A stretch of 64,000 nucleotides of DNA from an uncultured bacterium (GCA_949300345.1 CASGDR010000001.1:1-64000); one strand, 5' to 3'; positions 3,160 through 9,818 are shown, counted from the first letter of the stretch. Numbers and translations are program-made. Notes: generated from the letters alone by a model not told the origin.

Positions 3160-3498
3160 ATGTGCTATCATTTGCCCATGAAACAAGAAACCATCGATAG
3201 AATCCGTCGCTTCAGCGAGGATAGGGACTGGGATCAGTTCCATAGTCCTGCCAACTTGGCCAAATCCATAGCCATCGAGGCAGGGGAACTGCTCGAATGC
3301 TTTCAGTGGAATGATGACGGATATGACATCCAGGAAGTAAAAGAAGAACTTGCGGATGTCATGGTCTATTGCATCGACCTTCTCGATAAGCTTGGCCTTG
3401 ATGCCGATGAAATCATCAACGAGAAGATGGAAAGTAACGAGAAGAAATACCCCGTGGAAAAAGCCAAAGGCTCATCGAAGAAATACAATAAGCTTTAA
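3160..3498 (+). CDS. MazG-like nucleotide pyrophosphohydrolase
   Basis: This is a small all-alpha NTP pyrophosphohydrolase of the MazG/dCTPase (RS21-C6) type, expected to hydrolyse (d)NTPs to monophosphates and pyrophosphate in the cytosol. The typical metal-binding pattern is visible: an EAGELLECFQW segment, then EVKEELADVMVYCIDLLDKL, giving the ExxE...ExxD ligand set. Length (112 aa) fits a single-domain enzyme. I chose ATG 3160 because AAAGG lies 7 nt upstream; ATG 3178 would match family N-termini (MKQETID) but has no ribosome-binding site. The stop overlaps the next start by 1 nt (TAATG), so the pair is probably translationally coupled. Its place between a CRISPR array and a nuclease-helicase suggests a role in phage response rather than house-cleaning, which is inference. 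Confidence 0.88.
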   Translation: MCYHLPMKQETIDRIRRFSEDRDWDQFHSPANLAKSIAIEAGELLECFQWNDDGYDIQEVKEELADVMVYCIDLLDKLGLDADEIINEKMESNEKKYPVEKAKGSSKKYNKL

Positions 3499-5375
3499 TG
3501 ATTATATACAGCGGCACCCTCAAGCAGTTCAAACAGGACGTTTATCTAAATAAGCTAACAGAGAACCTGACGAGCCTTTTCTTGTCCATGGGCCTAGGCA
3601 ATACGCCGGAAGCCGAAAAGCGTTCCTGGGAAAATTCATTGCAGAAGATGACCAACGTCATGAACCTGACTTCGGTCGATCCCGAGGCCCATGTCGCGAT
3701 AGAATACAAGATTCCCCATAGCCAGAAACGGGTTGATTTCATTGTTTCTGGTTTGGATGAGAATCGCAATTTCTCAGCAGTCATCGTCGAACTCAAGCAG
3801 TGGCAGGAAGCCCAGGCTACCATGGAACCTGATTTGGTAAAGACATATCTTGGTGGTTGCATAAGATCACACACCCATCCTAGTTACCAAGCCTATAGCT
3901 ATGCCCGCACCATCGAAAATTTCAACGAGGATGTCCTTACCTACAAGATAAGGCTCAAGCCGTGTGCCTATCTCCATAACATGAATAGAAGAAACGGAAA
4001 GGGAATCCTCGACGAGCGATATTCCGAGGTCCTTAGGGAAGCCCCTTCTTTCTTGATGGACGATGCCAAGGCACTAGCGGAATACATTGACCGCTACGTA
4101 AAGAAATCCGACGGCGGGTTCGTACTAAATGCGATTGAAAACGGAAGGCTCAAGCCCTCGAAATCCCTGCAGGATTGCATCGGTTCGATGCTTGAAGGGA
4201 ATGAGTCCTTCGTTCTTCTAGATGAGCAAAAAGTTGCCTTCGAATACATTTCCAAAGCCATATTCGAAGTCAAAAAAGGCCGCGGCAAGTCAACGATTAT
4301 CGTCAAGGGAGGGCCCGGCACCGGCAAAAGCGTCATCGCCATCAATTTGTTGGCTGATTGCATCAGAAAGGGTCTAGCCTGTGCTTATACAAGCAAAACA
4401 TCGGCTCCTCGCAACGTTTATTCCCGCGAGCTTCAAAAAGGCCATGGTCTCAAGCGAAGTTATATTTCCTCGCTTTTCATGGGATCTGGATGTTTTGTCG
4501 ATGCCGGAAACAATACCTTTGATGTCCTTCTGGCCGACGAAGCCCATCGCCTCAATAAAAAATCCGGAATCTATCAAACCAAAGGGGAGAACCAAATCCA
4601 GGAAATCATCCATGCCAGCCGTGTTTCCGTCTTCTTCATCGATGAAAGGCAAAAGGTCACCAACAGCGATTTCGGCTCCATTGTCGAAATCCGGGCCTCT
4701 GCCTTGCGTGAGGGGAGCCGTGTCCTAGAAGGGGAGGATTTCGAATTGGTCAGCCAATTCCGCTGCATCGGCTCAGAAAGTTTCCTCCGTTTTGTGGAGG
4801 ATTTGCTCAACGGGCAAAGGAGCAAAGTCTATGATCCGTTGGACTTTGATTTGAAAATCTATGACGATCCCTCCTTGATGCGCGAAGACCTCAGAAAACT
4901 GAACACGAACAACAAGACCAGGATGGTGGCCGGATATTGTTACAACTGGATCAGCAAGCATGATCCCACGGCTTTCGATATCCAAATCGGCGACTTCAAG
5001 GCCCAATGGAATTTCTCCTCGACGACTACCTGGGCCATCGACCCCGAAAGTTTCGATCAGGTGGGCTGTATACATACCAGCCAGGGGCTGGAGTTTGACC
5101 ATGTCGGAGTAATCATGGGCGAAGATATTCGCATGGAAGATGACGGACATGTCGTCTTTGACTACGAAAAGCGCGCCAAAAGCGACCAATCCTTGAAGGG
5201 AATCAAGAAAAGCAAAAACTTCGGTTTGGCCCAAGAAATCATCCGCAACACCTACATGACCCTGCTGACCAGAGGGATGAAAGGGTGTTATATCTACATC
5301 CAAGACGAGCGGCTTAGGGATTTTGCCAAAAAACTTCTGGCCCATTACGAAAATCCACGACACCTGAAGGTTTGA
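3498..5375 (+). CDS. DUF2075 helicase with N-terminal PD-(D/E)XK nuclease-like domain
   Basis: A 625-aa P-loop helicase-like protein of the DUF2075/COG3410 group. The N-terminal ~110 residues carry a PD-(D/E)XK-type signature: E69, D80 (in RVDFIVSG) and E98-x-K100 (in VIVELKQW), suggesting a nuclease. The helicase part has Walker A GGPGTGKS at 271-278 and a DEAH box (LLADEAH) at 344-350. Near the C-terminus come a superfamily I-type motif with TSQGLEFDHVGVI and then LLTRGMKGCYI. Expected activity is ATP-driven nucleic acid unwinding with possible cleavage; the substrate is unknown. The start overlaps the mazG-like stop by 1 nt. Schlafen-like and DUF2075 helicases are often found among defence genes (general knowledge); anti-phage function here is inferred from the CRISPR neighbour. 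It ends in TGA, confirming standard stop usage. Confidence 0.85.
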   Translation: MIIYSGTLKQFKQDVYLNKLTENLTSLFLSMGLGNTPEAEKRSWENSLQKMTNVMNLTSVDPEAHVAIEYKIPHSQKRVDFIVSGLDENRNFSAVIVELKQWQEAQATMEPDLVKTYLGGCIRSHTHPSYQAYSYARTIENFNEDVLTYKIRLKPCAYLHNMNRRNGKGILDERYSEVLREAPSFLMDDAKALAEYIDRYVKKSDGGFVLNAIENGRLKPSKSLQDCIGSMLEGNESFVLLDEQKVAFEYISKAIFEVKKGRGKSTIIVKGGPGTGKSVIAINLLADCIRKGLACAYTSKTSAPRNVYSRELQKGHGLKRSYISSLFMGSGCFVDAGNNTFDVLLADEAHRLNKKSGIYQTKGENQIQEIIHASRVSVFFIDERQKVTNSDFGSIVEIRASALREGSRVLEGEDFELVSQFRCIGSESFLRFVEDLLNGQRSKVYDPLDFDLKIYDDPSLMREDLRKLNTNNKTRMVAGYCYNWISKHDPTAFDIQIGDFKAQWNFSSTTTWAIDPESFDQVGCIHTSQGLEFDHVGVIMGEDIRMEDDGHVVFDYEKRAKSDQSLKGIKKSKNFGLAQEIIRNTYMTLLTRGMKGCYIYIQDERLRDFAKKLLAHYENPRHLKV

Positions 5376-5575: not shown

Positions 5576-5604
5576 TTGACATGGGATTGATTAGGCCACA
5601 TAGT
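5576..5604 (+). promoter_or_regulatory. Sigma-A-type promoter of the six-gene operon
   Basis: A consensus -35 TTGACA (5576-5581) is followed after exactly 17 nt by CATAGT (5599-5604). Only 10 nt separate the -10 box from the ATG at 5615, so the transcript should be nearly or fully leaderless. Confidence 0.7.
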
Positions 5605-5614
5605 CAGCCTTAGG

Positions 5615-6724
5615 ATGCTGGGCCTAGAGTACAAAAGCAGCCGTTTGGGCTATACCTATCCCTTTTACCTTTGGGTCTATAAGTCCCGTGTTTTGGTAAT
5701 ACTGGCCTCGGTCTTTTTCGCCGCTCTCCTTTTAGGAGGGGGCGTCCTGGAAATACTGGTTATGATTGGGACAATTGAGCAAGCTAGGGTAAACCGCTAC
5801 ATGCTGTGGGTGGGGGTGCCCATCCTGGCCCTTGGCCTATTATGCATCGTCGGGATTACCTTTATCATCTATTACCTAAATGAGGCCAAGTACAGGCTGA
5901 TCAACTACGCTAGGCAACTGGGGGATGATCCTAGTAAAGCCAAGAAAAGATACAAGGAACTGGTCTTTTCCCAGAGGTCGATCAAGGAAGCGATGGACTA
6001 TGTGGAGGGCTATCGCCTTAGGATGGAAAAGGAACTCACTAGGCTCAGGAAGAAAGACGGGCTAGGGGAGATGGGCTTTGGCTATAACGATTCCTCCTTC
6101 GAGGGCCTTACCATTGGCTTTCTGAAGGTCTTCTTCCTAGGCGCGGCCATAAGCATGTTTACCCTAGGGCTAGGCTTTCCCTATGCTTTGCATATCTACG
6201 TCAAATGGGAACAGGATAACGCCATGGTCTCGGGATGCCCCAAGGAATACCGGGGCACCGTAAGGATGATGTACGCCCAGTGGGGCAAGTGGCTCCTATA
6301 TACCGTCTGCAGCTGTTTTCTGTTCCTATTCATCATCAAGAAAGCCGTCAATAGATGGGTACTTGAGAATACCTACCTCAAAGGCGGGAACATGAGCCTA
6401 GGGACGGCCTATGACACCTCGGTGTTCATCTCGGTCGGGTTCTCGCTGCTGCTTAAGCTACTGAAGTGGGGGACCCTAGGGATATGTTCCTCTTTGGTGG
6501 AGACCTGGAGGATGGGCTATGAGTACCGCCACCTGGTCCACTGGGGACGGCGCTATGAGTTCAGGGCGTCGGGGACCCTTTACTTTCTGAAGTTCCTGCT
6601 ATGGAGCTGGCTAAGCCTTATCACCCTTGGGATCTTTTCCCTCTTCGTGAGGGTCAGGCATCTGAAGTGGGAGTATTCCCATCTGAGGATGAAAGAACAA
6701 TTGACCCTAAGCAGGATATACTAA
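5615..6724 (+). CDS. DUF898 (YjgN)-like multi-span membrane protein
   Basis: A 369-aa protein with several hydrophobic segments, at roughly residues 27-55 and 65-85 and then four to five spans between 165 and 355. The middle and C-terminal parts resemble the repeated DUF898/YjgN module: a short entry motif (SSFEGLTIGFLKVFF), a TLGLGFPYALHIYVKW turn, and a second copy reading SLITLGIFSLFVRVRHLKWE. Residues 90-150 form a charged cytosolic helical stretch. Function of this family is unknown. It is the first gene of a tightly packed operon (2-nt gap to the next gene) and has a promoter immediately upstream. AGG just before the ATG is too close to be a normal ribosome-binding site, consistent with leaderless translation. 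The family call is moderate; membrane topology is clear. Confidence 0.7.
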   Translation: MLGLEYKSSRLGYTYPFYLWVYKSRVLVILASVFFAALLLGGGVLEILVMIGTIEQARVNRYMLWVGVPILALGLLCIVGITFIIYYLNEAKYRLINYARQLGDDPSKAKKRYKELVFSQRSIKEAMDYVEGYRLRMEKELTRLRKKDGLGEMGFGYNDSSFEGLTIGFLKVFFLGAAISMFTLGLGFPYALHIYVKWEQDNAMVSGCPKEYRGTVRMMYAQWGKWLLYTVCSCFLFLFIIKKAVNRWVLENTYLKGGNMSLGTAYDTSVFISVGFSLLLKLLKWGTLGICSSLVETWRMGYEYRHLVHWGRRYEFRASGTLYFLKFLLWSWLSLITLGIFSLFVRVRHLKWEYSHLRMKEQLTLSRIY

Positions 6725-6726
6725 TC

Positions 6727-7119
6727 ATGGTGAAAGACATCCAGTGGTTCAAATGCTCGGCCGGGGGGCTAGCCTCCCTTTACCATACCAACATCACCCT
6801 GAACAAGGACGCCAGGGTCCTCTTTGAGGAGGCTTCCTATTGCATGGTGGGCCTAGAGGGGGCCAAGTTGGCCCTAAGGCCACTAGATGAGAAAGAAGCA
6901 AACATAGCCATCAAAGAGGGCAATGCCGTCTATAAGGTGGGCCTAAGGCCCTCGTATGCCAGGATCTCTTCCACCGGGCTGATGGAAGAGATAACCCTAA
7001 GATGCGGACTAAGGTTCTCCGATAAGGCCAGGAAGTTCCCTTGCCATATAGACAAAAAGGAAAGGCTGCTTCTGGTCGATCTCTTATCGGAGATATCCAA
7101 GAAGGAGGAAGGGATATGA
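6727..7119 (+). CDS. Hypothetical protein, 130 aa
   Basis: A soluble, basic 130-aa protein I do not recognise. It has no signal peptide or membrane segment. A central stretch (residues about 50-80) alternates hydrophobic and charged residues and looks beta-rich; the C-terminus (KKERLLLVDLLSEISKKEEG) looks helical. The start lies 2 nt after the stop of the membrane protein gene, and the stop overlaps the next start (ATGA), so it belongs to the operon and is probably co-translated with its neighbours. A longer reading frame begins inside the upstream gene, but ATG 6727 fits the operon spacing better. Confidence 0.75.
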   Translation: MVKDIQWFKCSAGGLASLYHTNITLNKDARVLFEEASYCMVGLEGAKLALRPLDEKEANIAIKEGNAVYKVGLRPSYARISSTGLMEEITLRCGLRFSDKARKFPCHIDKKERLLLVDLLSEISKKEEGI

Positions 7120-7445
7120 AGTTCTTTTATGACGGGAATGACATCTATTTCCAAAATGAGGATGGCTCTTTGGTTTATAAAGATGGCTGGCTAGAAGTGC
7201 CTAAGGCCCTAGGGGAGCCCATCACACTATCCAAAGCCCTGGATATCCTCAAGCAAAAAGGCGGGAAGATGCCCCGTGCCTGCTTTTCCTATCTAGAAGG
7301 GCTAAGCTGCTCTATGGCCCTATCATCGGGCCGGCTTTTGGAATCCTTCCAGTGGGATGAGGGGAACTTTTCTTTATCCGACATCAGAAAATGCCTGGAG
7401 GAAATATCCTTTGAAGTTGGTAAACTCCTAGAGGAGACCAAGTAG
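7116..7445 (+). CDS. Hypothetical protein, 109 aa
   Basis: A small acidic cytosolic protein without recognisable domains. The first 30 residues look like short beta strands (KFFYDGNDIYFQNEDGSLVY), and the rest is predicted helical with a C-terminal amphipathic helix. A strong AGGAGG sits 7 nt before ATG 7116 inside the preceding gene, and the start overlaps the upstream stop by 4 nt. The next gene follows after 2 nt. Small, conserved-spacing partners next to a HEPN protein can be antitoxins or adaptors, but nothing in the sequence proves that. Confidence 0.75.
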   Translation: MKFFYDGNDIYFQNEDGSLVYKDGWLEVPKALGEPITLSKALDILKQKGGKMPRACFSYLEGLSCSMALSSGRLLESFQWDEGNFSLSDIRKCLEEISFEVGKLLEETK

Positions 7446-7447
7446 AT

Positions 7448-8164
7448 ATGGCCAATAACGACACCTTCATGCAGCTATACAATGACCTCGACGAGGCCAT
7501 TAGGGACAAGTACGGATTGGAGAAGCAATCCAACTCCGCAATCAATTTCTATATCGCCAAGCTCAGAAAAGCTTCCGGGGCTAGGGCCGAGCGCTTTTCC
7601 GAAAGCCTCGATGCCTTGCGCCAGCTTAGGAACAATCTGGTCCATTCCTCGAGGATAGACGGGCAGGAACTATTCGAAGTAAGCGAGACTTCAATCAAGG
7701 AACTCTCCCTTATTTTGGAATACGTCAAGAACCCCCCGCGGCTCATCGACTATGCGGTGTCCTATAAAGACCTGCTGAAGGCCGATATCAGGGAAAATCC
7801 CACCCTGGTTTTACTTAACGAAGAGATGCTTTCTAGAGGCATATCCCATGTCCCGGTCTTCGATGATGGTAATCTGGTCGGGGTCTATTCGGAAGCGGTC
7901 CTCTTCGCCTTCATGTGCGACCATCCAGAACTCCCGGTATCCGAGCTTAGTCTCGTCGACTTAAGCGATTACATCGGGATCGAGGAGCACACCAACGAAA
8001 GGTATATGTTCGCTTCTAGGCATTTCACCTTGGATGAGGCGGCTTTGGAATTCGCTAGCAGCAAAAAGAAGACCGGCTACCGCCTCGGACTCATCTTCAT
8101 CACCGAACACGGCCGGCCCTCCGAGCGCATCCTCGCCGCGGCCTCGATCGGAGGTCTTAGCTGA
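7448..8164 (+). CDS. HEPN-like domain fused to a CBS pair
   Basis: A 238-aa protein in two parts. Residues 1-95 are helical and carry RNNLVH at 61-66, which fits the Rx4H motif of HEPN domains (often metal-independent ribonucleases). Residues about 105-238 look like a tandem CBS unit: GISHVPVFDDGNLVGVYSE matches the typical beta-alpha-beta core, and a weaker second copy follows (RYMFASRHFTLDEAALEF, then RLGLIFITEHGRPSERI). CBS pairs usually sense adenosine nucleotides, so a nucleotide-gated RNase is a reasonable inference. The gene lies fourth in the operon, 2 nt after the preceding stop, and overlaps the TetR gene by 1 nt. The exact HEPN subfamily is not determined. Confidence 0.7.
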   Translation: MANNDTFMQLYNDLDEAIRDKYGLEKQSNSAINFYIAKLRKASGARAERFSESLDALRQLRNNLVHSSRIDGQELFEVSETSIKELSLILEYVKNPPRLIDYAVSYKDLLKADIRENPTLVLLNEEMLSRGISHVPVFDDGNLVGVYSEAVLFAFMCDHPELPVSELSLVDLSDYIGIEEHTNERYMFASRHFTLDEAALEFASSKKKTGYRLGLIFITEHGRPSERILAAASIGGLS

Positions 8165-8715
8165 TGGATAGGCGCATCGAAAGAAGCAAGAAAGCCATCA
8201 AATCTGCCCTGACCGAACTGGTTCTGGAGAAGGGCTTTGAAAACATCACGGCGGGGCAGGTGGCCTCTAAGGCCGGGGTCAATAGGTCGACCATCTATCT
8301 TCATTATTCGAGCCTGGACTACATCCTTTATGACATCGAAGACGAGGTCATCAAGGACATCATGAAAAGCGCCTTCATGCTCACCGATGATTTCTCCCTT
8401 TATATCAACCGCTTGGCTTTAGCCATCTTGGGCCAGAAAGAGAAGATCCGTGCGGTATTATCAAGCTGCTACGCCCACTTTTTGAAGAAGCTTGAAGGGG
8501 CCATCTTCCCCCTTATCAACATGTCCAGGTTCGGCGGGACCCTCTTTACCAAGGAAGAGGAAAAGCTCTTGCTCATCTTCCTGCTCGATGGCTCGATCGG
8601 GGTCATCGATTCGTATCTGAAGACCCACCATGACCCCGACGTCAAGGAGGTCGAGCATCTGGTAGAATCCTTCATCTCCTTCTTCCGCGACCCCATCTTC
8701 CAGGAAAAGAAATAG
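8164..8715 (+). CDS. TetR/AcrR-family transcriptional regulator
   Basis: A 183-aa repressor-type protein. The N-terminal helix-turn-helix is clear at residues about 10-55 (KSALTELVLEKGFENITAG, then QVASKAGVNRSTIYLHYSS). The all-helical C-terminal region resembles the TetR C-terminal domain (TetR_C_7-like). A GGAGG lies about 9 nt upstream of the ATG, and the start overlaps the HEPN-CBS stop by 1 nt. Because it sits inside the operon, it may autoregulate it; no clear operator palindrome is visible at the 5576 promoter, so this is inference. The ligand is unknown. Confidence 0.88.
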   Translation: MDRRIERSKKAIKSALTELVLEKGFENITAGQVASKAGVNRSTIYLHYSSLDYILYDIEDEVIKDIMKSAFMLTDDFSLYINRLALAILGQKEKIRAVLSSCYAHFLKKLEGAIFPLINMSRFGGTLFTKEEEKLLLIFLLDGSIGVIDSYLKTHHDPDVKEVEHLVESFISFFRDPIFQEKK

Positions 8716-8723
8716 CAAGCCTT

Positions 8724-9653
8724 ATGGATAATCTATCTTCCCTCTTCGATAAGGGCCAATACCAGGCCGTCATCGATCTTACAACCGGTTCAAGCGAGCC
8801 GAGCGATCTTTTATACCGCGCTTCGGCTTATTTGGCCCTAAATAAACCCGAGGAGGCCCTTGATATCCTCTCTAGCAATCGGGAAAGGCTTTACGCCTTC
8901 CGTCCGGTGGCCACCATCAAGGGGACCATGGGGGCCAGATATGCCCTCAATGACTATACCGGAGCCTTGCTTGATGCCCAGTGGTTTGCCGATCAGCCCT
9001 ACGTAAGCCAGGAAGTAGAAGAGGTGCTCCGGGAACTGCCAAAGCAGATCAAGGAGATGGAAGAGGCCAATAAGAAGGCCTTCCTCTTACCCAAGCAAAA
9101 AGCCAAGAAGGAAGAAAAGAAGGAGCAAGACGAGCAGTCCCTTCTATCCATCATCACCCGTCTTGGTCCGACCGGCTCCCCGGATGAGGGACTATGTAGG
9201 AAAATCGCTAGCCTACTCCCCGATGAAAAAGACCGCCAGATCGCCGCGGTGGGACTACTGTTGCTCATCCAATCCGGCTATCCCAACCTGGTCGAATACA
9301 AGAAGGGCTCGAAGATCTTTAGGGTAGTGCCCAAGGATCTGACCATCCCGATGTTTGATAAGGACTGCCTCTATGTGACCGAGGCCATCTCTAAGGATGC
9401 GTCTGACCCTGGGATCGCCCGCTTTGCCAACACCTATTTCATGACCTATGCCCTCGCCATGATGCCGGAGAAGGCCGTCGGGCCGGGGGAATCGCGCCTA
9501 TTGGAAGCGGCCATGCTCAAGATCGCCGCCGAAGCCTTGAAGTCAAGCGTGGACCTTGAGGCCCTAAAGGCCAGATACTCCCTTAGCGAGCAGGAAATCA
9601 CCGATAAGGCCAACGAAGTCAACCAATTGCTCTCCATGATGGGCAATGATTAG
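8724..9653 (+). CDS. TPR-like hypothetical protein
   Basis: A 309-aa cytosolic protein. Residues 1-110 form helical pairs of TPR type (LFDKGQYQAVIDLTTG, then LLYRASAYLALNKPEEALDIL). A lysine/glutamate-rich linker follows at about 112-140, then a helical C-terminal domain of unknown type ending in a coiled segment. No catalytic motif is visible. It lies 8 nt after the TetR stop and is followed by a terminator at 9709, so it closes the operon. There is no obvious ribosome-binding site before ATG 8724, suggesting coupling to upstream translation. A scaffolding role is possible from the TPR part only. Confidence 0.72.
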   Translation: MDNLSSLFDKGQYQAVIDLTTGSSEPSDLLYRASAYLALNKPEEALDILSSNRERLYAFRPVATIKGTMGARYALNDYTGALLDAQWFADQPYVSQEVEEVLRELPKQIKEMEEANKKAFLLPKQKAKKEEKKEQDEQSLLSIITRLGPTGSPDEGLCRKIASLLPDEKDRQIAAVGLLLLIQSGYPNLVEYKKGSKIFRVVPKDLTIPMFDKDCLYVTEAISKDASDPGIARFANTYFMTYALAMMPEKAVGPGESRLLEAAMLKIAAEALKSSVDLEALKARYSLSEQEITDKANEVNQLLSMMGND

Positions 9654-9708
9654 CCATCGCCTTGGTGTAGCTTCCTTTGTGACTTAAAGTAGGGGATGAA
9701 TAATGAGT

Positions 9709-9735
9709 TAGGGCCTTTGGCCCTATTTCATTTAT
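9709..9735 (+). terminator. Terminator of the six-gene operon
   Basis: A seven-base-pair hairpin (TAGGGCC, loop TTT, GGCCCTA) is followed by a T-rich tail (TTTCATTTATT). It lies 56 nt after the last gene of the operon. Confidence 0.8.
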
Positions 9736-9789: not shown

Positions 9790-9818
9790 TTGCCCTTATC
9801 TCTAGATAAGAGTAAACT
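9790..9818 (+). promoter_or_regulatory. Promoter of tig-lon with internal palindrome
   Basis: TTGCCC (9790-9795) and TAAACT (9813-9818) are spaced by 17 nt. The spacer contains the palindrome CTTATCTCTAGATAAG (about 9795-9810). The -10 box ends 10 nt before ATG 9829, pointing to a leaderless or near-leaderless transcript. Confidence 0.6.

Follow-up and report, generated by a model that had tools for sequence, protein, structure and literature searches.

We consider six co-directional genes on the plus strand of a 64,000-nucleotide stretch of DNA from an uncultured bacterium (GCA_949300345.1, CASGDR010000001.1:1-64000; hereafter the window), the fourth of which encodes a predicted HEPN ribonuclease joined to a pair of CBS domains (HEPN-CBS). 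The other five encode a DUF898-like membrane protein (MEM), two small proteins (S1 and S2), a TetR-family regulator and a TPR-like helical protein (Table 1). The locus holds a known architecture, HEPN-CBS, in a lineage-specific mosaic of genes. With confidence and doubt about evenly balanced, we propose that the functional centre of this mosaic is a HEPN RNase, gated by a ligand, that controls RNA in stress or housekeeping.

By their geometry the six open reading frames (5615-9653) form one apparent operon, with successive gaps of +2, -4, +2, -1 and +8 nucleotides (nt), and downstream of a terminator-like stem-loop follow tig and then lon, engB and glyA. The tight packing claimed in a preliminary description of this DNA is borne out, and the single terminator named there is matched by a terminator-like stem. 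The "strong promoter" of that description is reduced to a candidate, since sites matching the consensus at 10 of 12 positions are no commoner than in shuffled sequence (6 found, 4.3 +/- 2.4 expected) and the candidate implies a leader of only ~4 nt before the start codon of MEM.

Table 1. Genes and flanking signals of the six-gene locus, in window coordinates
Feature	Position	Strand	Basis
Sigma-70-like promoter candidate, TTGACA-17-CATAGT	5576..5604	+	10/12 consensus match
MEM, DUF898-like multi-pass membrane protein, 369 amino acids	5615..6724	+	PF05987, hydrophobic segments
S1, 130 amino acids, predicted tandem beta-beta-alpha-beta-beta (AbrB/MraZ-like)	6727..7119	+	model; orphaned member of S1-NfeD-SPFH
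S2, 109 amino acids, C-terminal half a short MazG-like segment without the catalytic Glu	7116..7445	+	alignment to the window MazG-like protein
HEPN-CBS, predicted HEPN ribonuclease (R61-N62...H66) and CBS pair, 238 amino acids	7448..8164	+	motif, model, CBS matches
TetR-family regulator, 183 amino acids	8164..8715	+	PF00440 (TetR_N), E 3e-7
TPR-like helical protein, 309 amino acids, lineage gene upstream of tig	8724..9653	+	weak TPR-like Pfam signal
Terminator-like stem-loop TAGGGCCTTTGGCCCTA with T-rich tail	9709..9725	+	7-bp G+C-rich stem, before tig

The HEPN-CBS protein and its loci in other genomes

A single-sequence Pfam search of the HEPN-CBS protein gives a CBS match (E 2.5e-4) and a HepT-like match (E 0.011), both below the cut-off. 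The fusion that the preliminary description had recognised is nevertheless well founded: the RN-x3-H motif of the HEPN domain, which fits the Rx4-6H signature of the HEPN ribonuclease superfamily, is invariant in the homologues (alignments of 12 and then 53 sequences; 53/53), and the AlphaFold model (predicted local distance difference test, pLDDT, 89.8) has four N-terminal helices (residues 3-22, 31-41, 45-66 and 80-94) followed by a CBS pair. This pair (residues 96-238) superimposes on many solved CBS pairs (VIA) with Z ~12-13 and a root-mean-square deviation of ~2-3, and sequence matches to solved CBS proteins reach E 4e-22. CBS matches filled the structure list from the whole-protein comparison, and no solved HEPN fold is among them. 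The ribose-binding aspartate of the T/S-x-x-D motif is absent from the first CBS repeat in 52 of the 53 homologues. In the second repeat it is kept in 46/52 of the family and lost in five members of the genus, the window protein included.

HEPN-CBS genes are present in 12 of the 61 relatives and, with the window genome (G000) counted, in 6 of the 37 genomes of the genus. Two relatives only, G029 and G006, both of other species, share the order HEPN-CBS-TetR-TPR-tig-lon-engB-glyA, and in these two and the window genome the block S2-HEPN-CBS-TetR-TPR-tig is kept with abutting or overlapping junctions. Another genus of the same family (g26) has DegV-HEPN-CBS-(epimerase-like genes)-TetR-TPR-tig, an order which shows that HEPN-CBS has been associated with this locus for longer. 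The HEPN-CBS tree groups by family with few exceptions; inheritance is mostly vertical, at fixed housekeeping loci in several families. One family (f28) places the gene between rplQ and ecfA (rpoA-rplQ-HEPN-CBS-ecfA), another (f5) beside Mrp and FeFe-hydrogenase genes, and single loci adjoin ffh/SRP54 and an ECF sigma factor. Within this one bacterial class, then, the broad HEPN-CBS family sits mostly at fixed and largely housekeeping loci, in a ribosomal-protein operon or near ffh or tig.

A further family (f18) has a gene for a LigT-type 2'-5' RNA phosphoesterase 2-3 nt 5' of HEPN-CBS (L229, 4788-6043; L230, 4614-5867). Cleavage by HEPN-type RNases is expected to yield 2',3'-cyclic phosphate ends, on which LigT-type enzymes can act; because such ends would suit it, this neighbour is suggestive, and the phosphoesterase is plausibly an RNA-end processing partner of HEPN-CBS.

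With the window protein as query there is no match on phages and none on plasmids. One match of a distant homologue appeared to be phage-borne, but we rejected it, the sequence being chromosomal DNA of Enterococcus entered under a phage name: the record "Enterococcus phage Efs 1-1-1" (L253, OR846607.1) carries fhs-HEPN-CBS-lspA-rluD-pyrR-pyrP and looks like a host contig. Distant copies do occur on a few plasmids of Rhodococcus and Chlorohelix. On one Rhodococcus plasmid (L251, 4404-6714) the gene lies near an HNH gene, an NTP pyrophosphohydrolase and a DEAD/DEAH helicase, and two further Rhodococcus plasmids have shortened copies near IS21 elements.

The contig entered as a phage is chromosomal DNA of Enterococcus faecalis, with the order fhs-HEPN-CBS-lspA-rluD-pyrR. 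Since pyrR is EF1721 (PMC2902013, PMC5383250), this gene order suggests that the HEPN-CBS gene is EF1724. Its product is a full-length homologue of the window protein (hhalign probability 98.6). EF1724 is reported as conserved throughout the enterococci compared (24 of 24 species) and is classed as "Fitness Important" in broth, with a dVal of 0.020 (PMC7701990). While the two proteins share the HEPN-CBS architecture over their full length, the enterococcal gene is core and fitness-important in its group and stands in another neighbourhood, adjoining lspA-rluD-pyrR, with neither S2 nor TetR.

The flanking genes and the defence context

The six genes were taken in the preliminary description for one system. 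In the relatives they come apart, an outcome that the description itself had named as refuting it: the MEM relatives are solitary genes, S1 belongs to an operon of its own, and the TPR-like gene stands upstream of tig in genomes that have no HEPN-CBS there. We have therefore rejected a conserved six-gene system, the genes being split into separate modules.

The nucleus of the locus is HEPN-CBS with S2 just before it, followed by TetR and the TPR-like gene. S2, like S1 one of the two small proteins left unrecognised in the preliminary description, matches nothing in Pfam. It aligns with the ordinary MazG-like protein of the window (3160-3498) at E 2e-7 by BLASTP and 1.3e-8 with an S2 profile. 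The two have the GxLLExFQW segment in common, whereas S2 is short and its catalytic acidic residues are gone, the EAGELLE of the window MazG-like protein being replaced by SSGRLLE, HAGRLLE or RSGRLLE in the S2 proteins. Strong S2 matches (E ~1e-32) are confined to 3 of the 61 genomes, those of the window, G029 and G006, and the next best is 5.6e-11; many of the weaker ones are neighbours of a Schlafen-type helicase gene, which is also the setting of the window's ordinary MazG-like gene. In all three genomes S2 lies directly upstream of HEPN-CBS and overlaps or abuts it, and in G029 and G006 it is a frame of 57-66 amino acids that overlaps the start of HEPN-CBS and has "GRLLExFQWDE" in common with the S2 of the window. 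Judged by alignment and position, S2 is likely a catalytically dead MazG-like protein and a regulatory partner of HEPN-CBS. We also entertain, as a rather doubtful idea, that this half-size protein became a subunit that senses a ligand for, or inhibits, a HEPN RNase whose CBS pair has lost its canonical nucleotide-binding residues; if so, a pyrophosphohydrolase fold would have been turned into the switch of an effector that cuts RNA in stress or defence. Because G004 and G012 have lost the aspartate of the second CBS repeat though they carry no S2, we keep this as a conjecture.

At the front of the locus, MEM matches PF05987 at E 9e-7 with 28.7 bits, just above the gathering score of 28, so that its DUF898-like label stands; the TetR label of the preliminary description is clear, and the TPR-like signal is weak. 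S1 has homologues in 21 of the 61 relatives and in 162 of the 395 genomes of the class. NfeD and SPFH genes come after it in 13 of the first 15 loci, and a further 20 loci, drawn from many families, nearly all show this arrangement (loci L069-L083, L279-L298 and L013; at L013 the Pfam matches are NfeD, 5e-15, and Band_7, 2e-37). S1 is thus the first gene of a class-wide S1-NfeD-SPFH operon and is itself uncharacterised. In G029 this operon immediately precedes S2-HEPN-CBS-TetR-TPR. The window genome has MEM ahead of S1; in it and in G006 no SPFH gene was detected at E 0.001, and NfeD was not searched genome-wide. Compared with the SPFH-NfeD operons already described (PMC2636767), which S1 leads across the class, the S1 of the window stands without a detectable SPFH gene and beside a DUF898-like protein. 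No Pfam or NCBIfam model fits S1, and an S1 profile finds no match among the sequences of solved structures. The model (pLDDT 87) has two beta-beta-alpha-beta-beta units; MraZ chains lead the structure comparison (Z 5.3-4.2, others <=3.1; Foldseek E only ~0.1), and a weakly supported AbrB/MraZ-like fold is a reasonable prediction.

TetR orthologues lie between HEPN-CBS and TPR at two loci (L013, L014) and close to both at L193-L198. Against the sequences of solved structures the TPR-like protein gives weak helical-repeat matches only. Its pairing with tig is a background feature of the genus: relatives whose tig locus lacks HEPN-CBS have the pair too, often with a HAD phosphatase gene upstream instead. 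In genome contigs a scan with HEPN-CBS gave no useful match, and one for tig returned mainly lactobacilli. Between its -35 and -10 elements the tig promoter has a 16-bp palindrome, CTTATCTNNAGATAAG (9795-9810), with one site per genome in the window genome, G029 and G006; G004 and G009 have a shorter form of it. TetR may act on this palindrome, although the core is also present in G004 and G009, which have no such TetR at the locus.

The CRISPR and the MazG/helicase genes that the preliminary description placed beside the operon are indeed adjacent in the window. The array runs from 1 to ~3050 with a period of ~65-66 nt and is truncated where the contig begins, and a cas gene was not seen among the open reading frames of the first 16 kb. 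The MazG-like and helicase genes occupy 3160-5375, and the helicase is of Schlafen group 3 with PADLOC matches to AbiO, Nhi and PDC-S41. This proximity is not conserved: the pair recurs side by side elsewhere in ~10 relatives, and the helicase lies ~119 kb from the HEPN-CBS locus in G029 and ~76 kb in G006. By its gene order the pair appears to be a mobile two-gene cassette, and we reject a conserved tie between it, the CRISPR array and the operon. Apart from a marginal TetR match (E 0.021), PADLOC assigns none of the six genes to defence. Nor does the supposed defence neighbourhood show a visible excess, the neighbours of ~50 HEPN-CBS genes matching 44 PADLOC families against 37 in the control, a rough comparison of family counts that generic ABC and helicase models inflate.

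Interpretation of the locus

HEPN-CBS proteins have been known as proposed switches of RNA stability and, once, as an anti-phage protein. The first proposal (Anantharaman et al. 2013, PMC3710099) treats HEPN-CBS fusions as nucleotide-responsive regulators, and the window protein would share with it the pairing of HEPN with CBS and the coupling of a soluble signal to RNA stability; the section of that paper on HEPN-CBS describes no operon of the present kind, and the present protein has no HD domain and is accompanied by S2, TetR and TPR. On our preferred reading, HEPN-CBS would be a metal-independent, dimeric endoribonuclease whose activity is gated by the C-terminal CBS pair and which would adjust RNA and translation under stress or as housekeeping. 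Within this lineage S2, TetR and the TPR-like protein, the last of the tig-lon neighbourhood, are probably expressed together with it; S2 is likely its regulatory partner, and TetR may regulate the unit, itself included. MEM and S1, at the front, would have been added later or be what is left of an S1-NfeD-SPFH membrane operon.

Several points weigh against this reading. Since the window protein has lost the ribose-binding aspartate of its CBS repeats, gating by an adenine nucleotide is unproven for it. The fitness effect of EF1724 may reflect polarity on lspA, and the identity of EF1724 with the contig gene is deduced from gene order. The patchy presence of HEPN-CBS within the genus is unlike that of a core housekeeping gene. 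Finally, DS-11, a one-protein anti-phage system of CBS and HEPN domains found with DefensePredictor, has been shown experimentally to act in E. coli (PMC13092281), and the HEPN-CBS gene itself may have a defence role.

The last two points lead to the alternative of a phage-defence module, in which a DS-11-like HEPN-CBS protein would respond to an adenine derivative, or to some other sign of infection, by cutting RNA and so abort the infection, while S2, MEM and S1 tune the response. DS-11 alone protects E. coli, and mutants in the HEPN catalytic residues or in the CBS domain (Y157A) do not; the plasmid-borne copies among the distant homologues speak for the same idea, and so does the company of CRISPR and the MazG/Schlafen-helicase pair in the window. 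The likeness to DS-11 is one of domain description; the window protein lacks the T/S-x-x-D aspartate in both CBS repeats. Against the alternative, the six genes are all but silent in PADLOC, the HEPN-CBS neighbourhoods look like background, the proximity to the CRISPR and helicase genes is not conserved, and in several families the gene has been passed down at a single, fixed housekeeping locus. Of the defence idea in the preliminary description, the general part, anti-phage action by a HEPN-CBS protein, is supported; the operon as a system is not, and we consider such a module unlikely, though worth keeping in mind.

It is improbable, in our estimate, that the locus works as a toxin-antitoxin-like pair in which S2, as a mini-MazG, neutralises the HEPN RNase under the control of TetR. 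The position of S2 directly upstream in every genome that has it fits such a pair, and so do its small size and the missing catalytic glutamate, as a binding-only protein should have; but S2 is missing from most HEPN-CBS loci, whose upstream genes vary, so that an obligate S2 antitoxin is not general. Unlike the HEPN/MNT toxin-antitoxin systems, moreover, the six genes include no match to an MNT-type nucleotidyltransferase antitoxin. Very improbable, too, is a membrane-linked stress unit, in which MEM and S1 would take over a microdomain function once supplied by S1-NfeD-SPFH and pass a signal on to HEPN-CBS. G029 has S1-NfeD-SPFH exactly where the window has MEM-S1, ahead of the same four genes, yet in G006 the HEPN-CBS unit has none of S1, SPFH or MEM alongside, and at the other sampled S1 loci the triad stands without HEPN-CBS.

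The choice between a defence gene and a core stress RNase, the latter being our preferred reading, is directly testable, given a clade in which the CBS motifs are altered and a putatively dead MazG-like protein is encoded next door, together with a probable E. faecalis member that is important for fitness. As a by-product of the comparison, S1, a protein outside the Pfam and NCBIfam models, emerges at the head of SPFH-NfeD membrane operons across the class.

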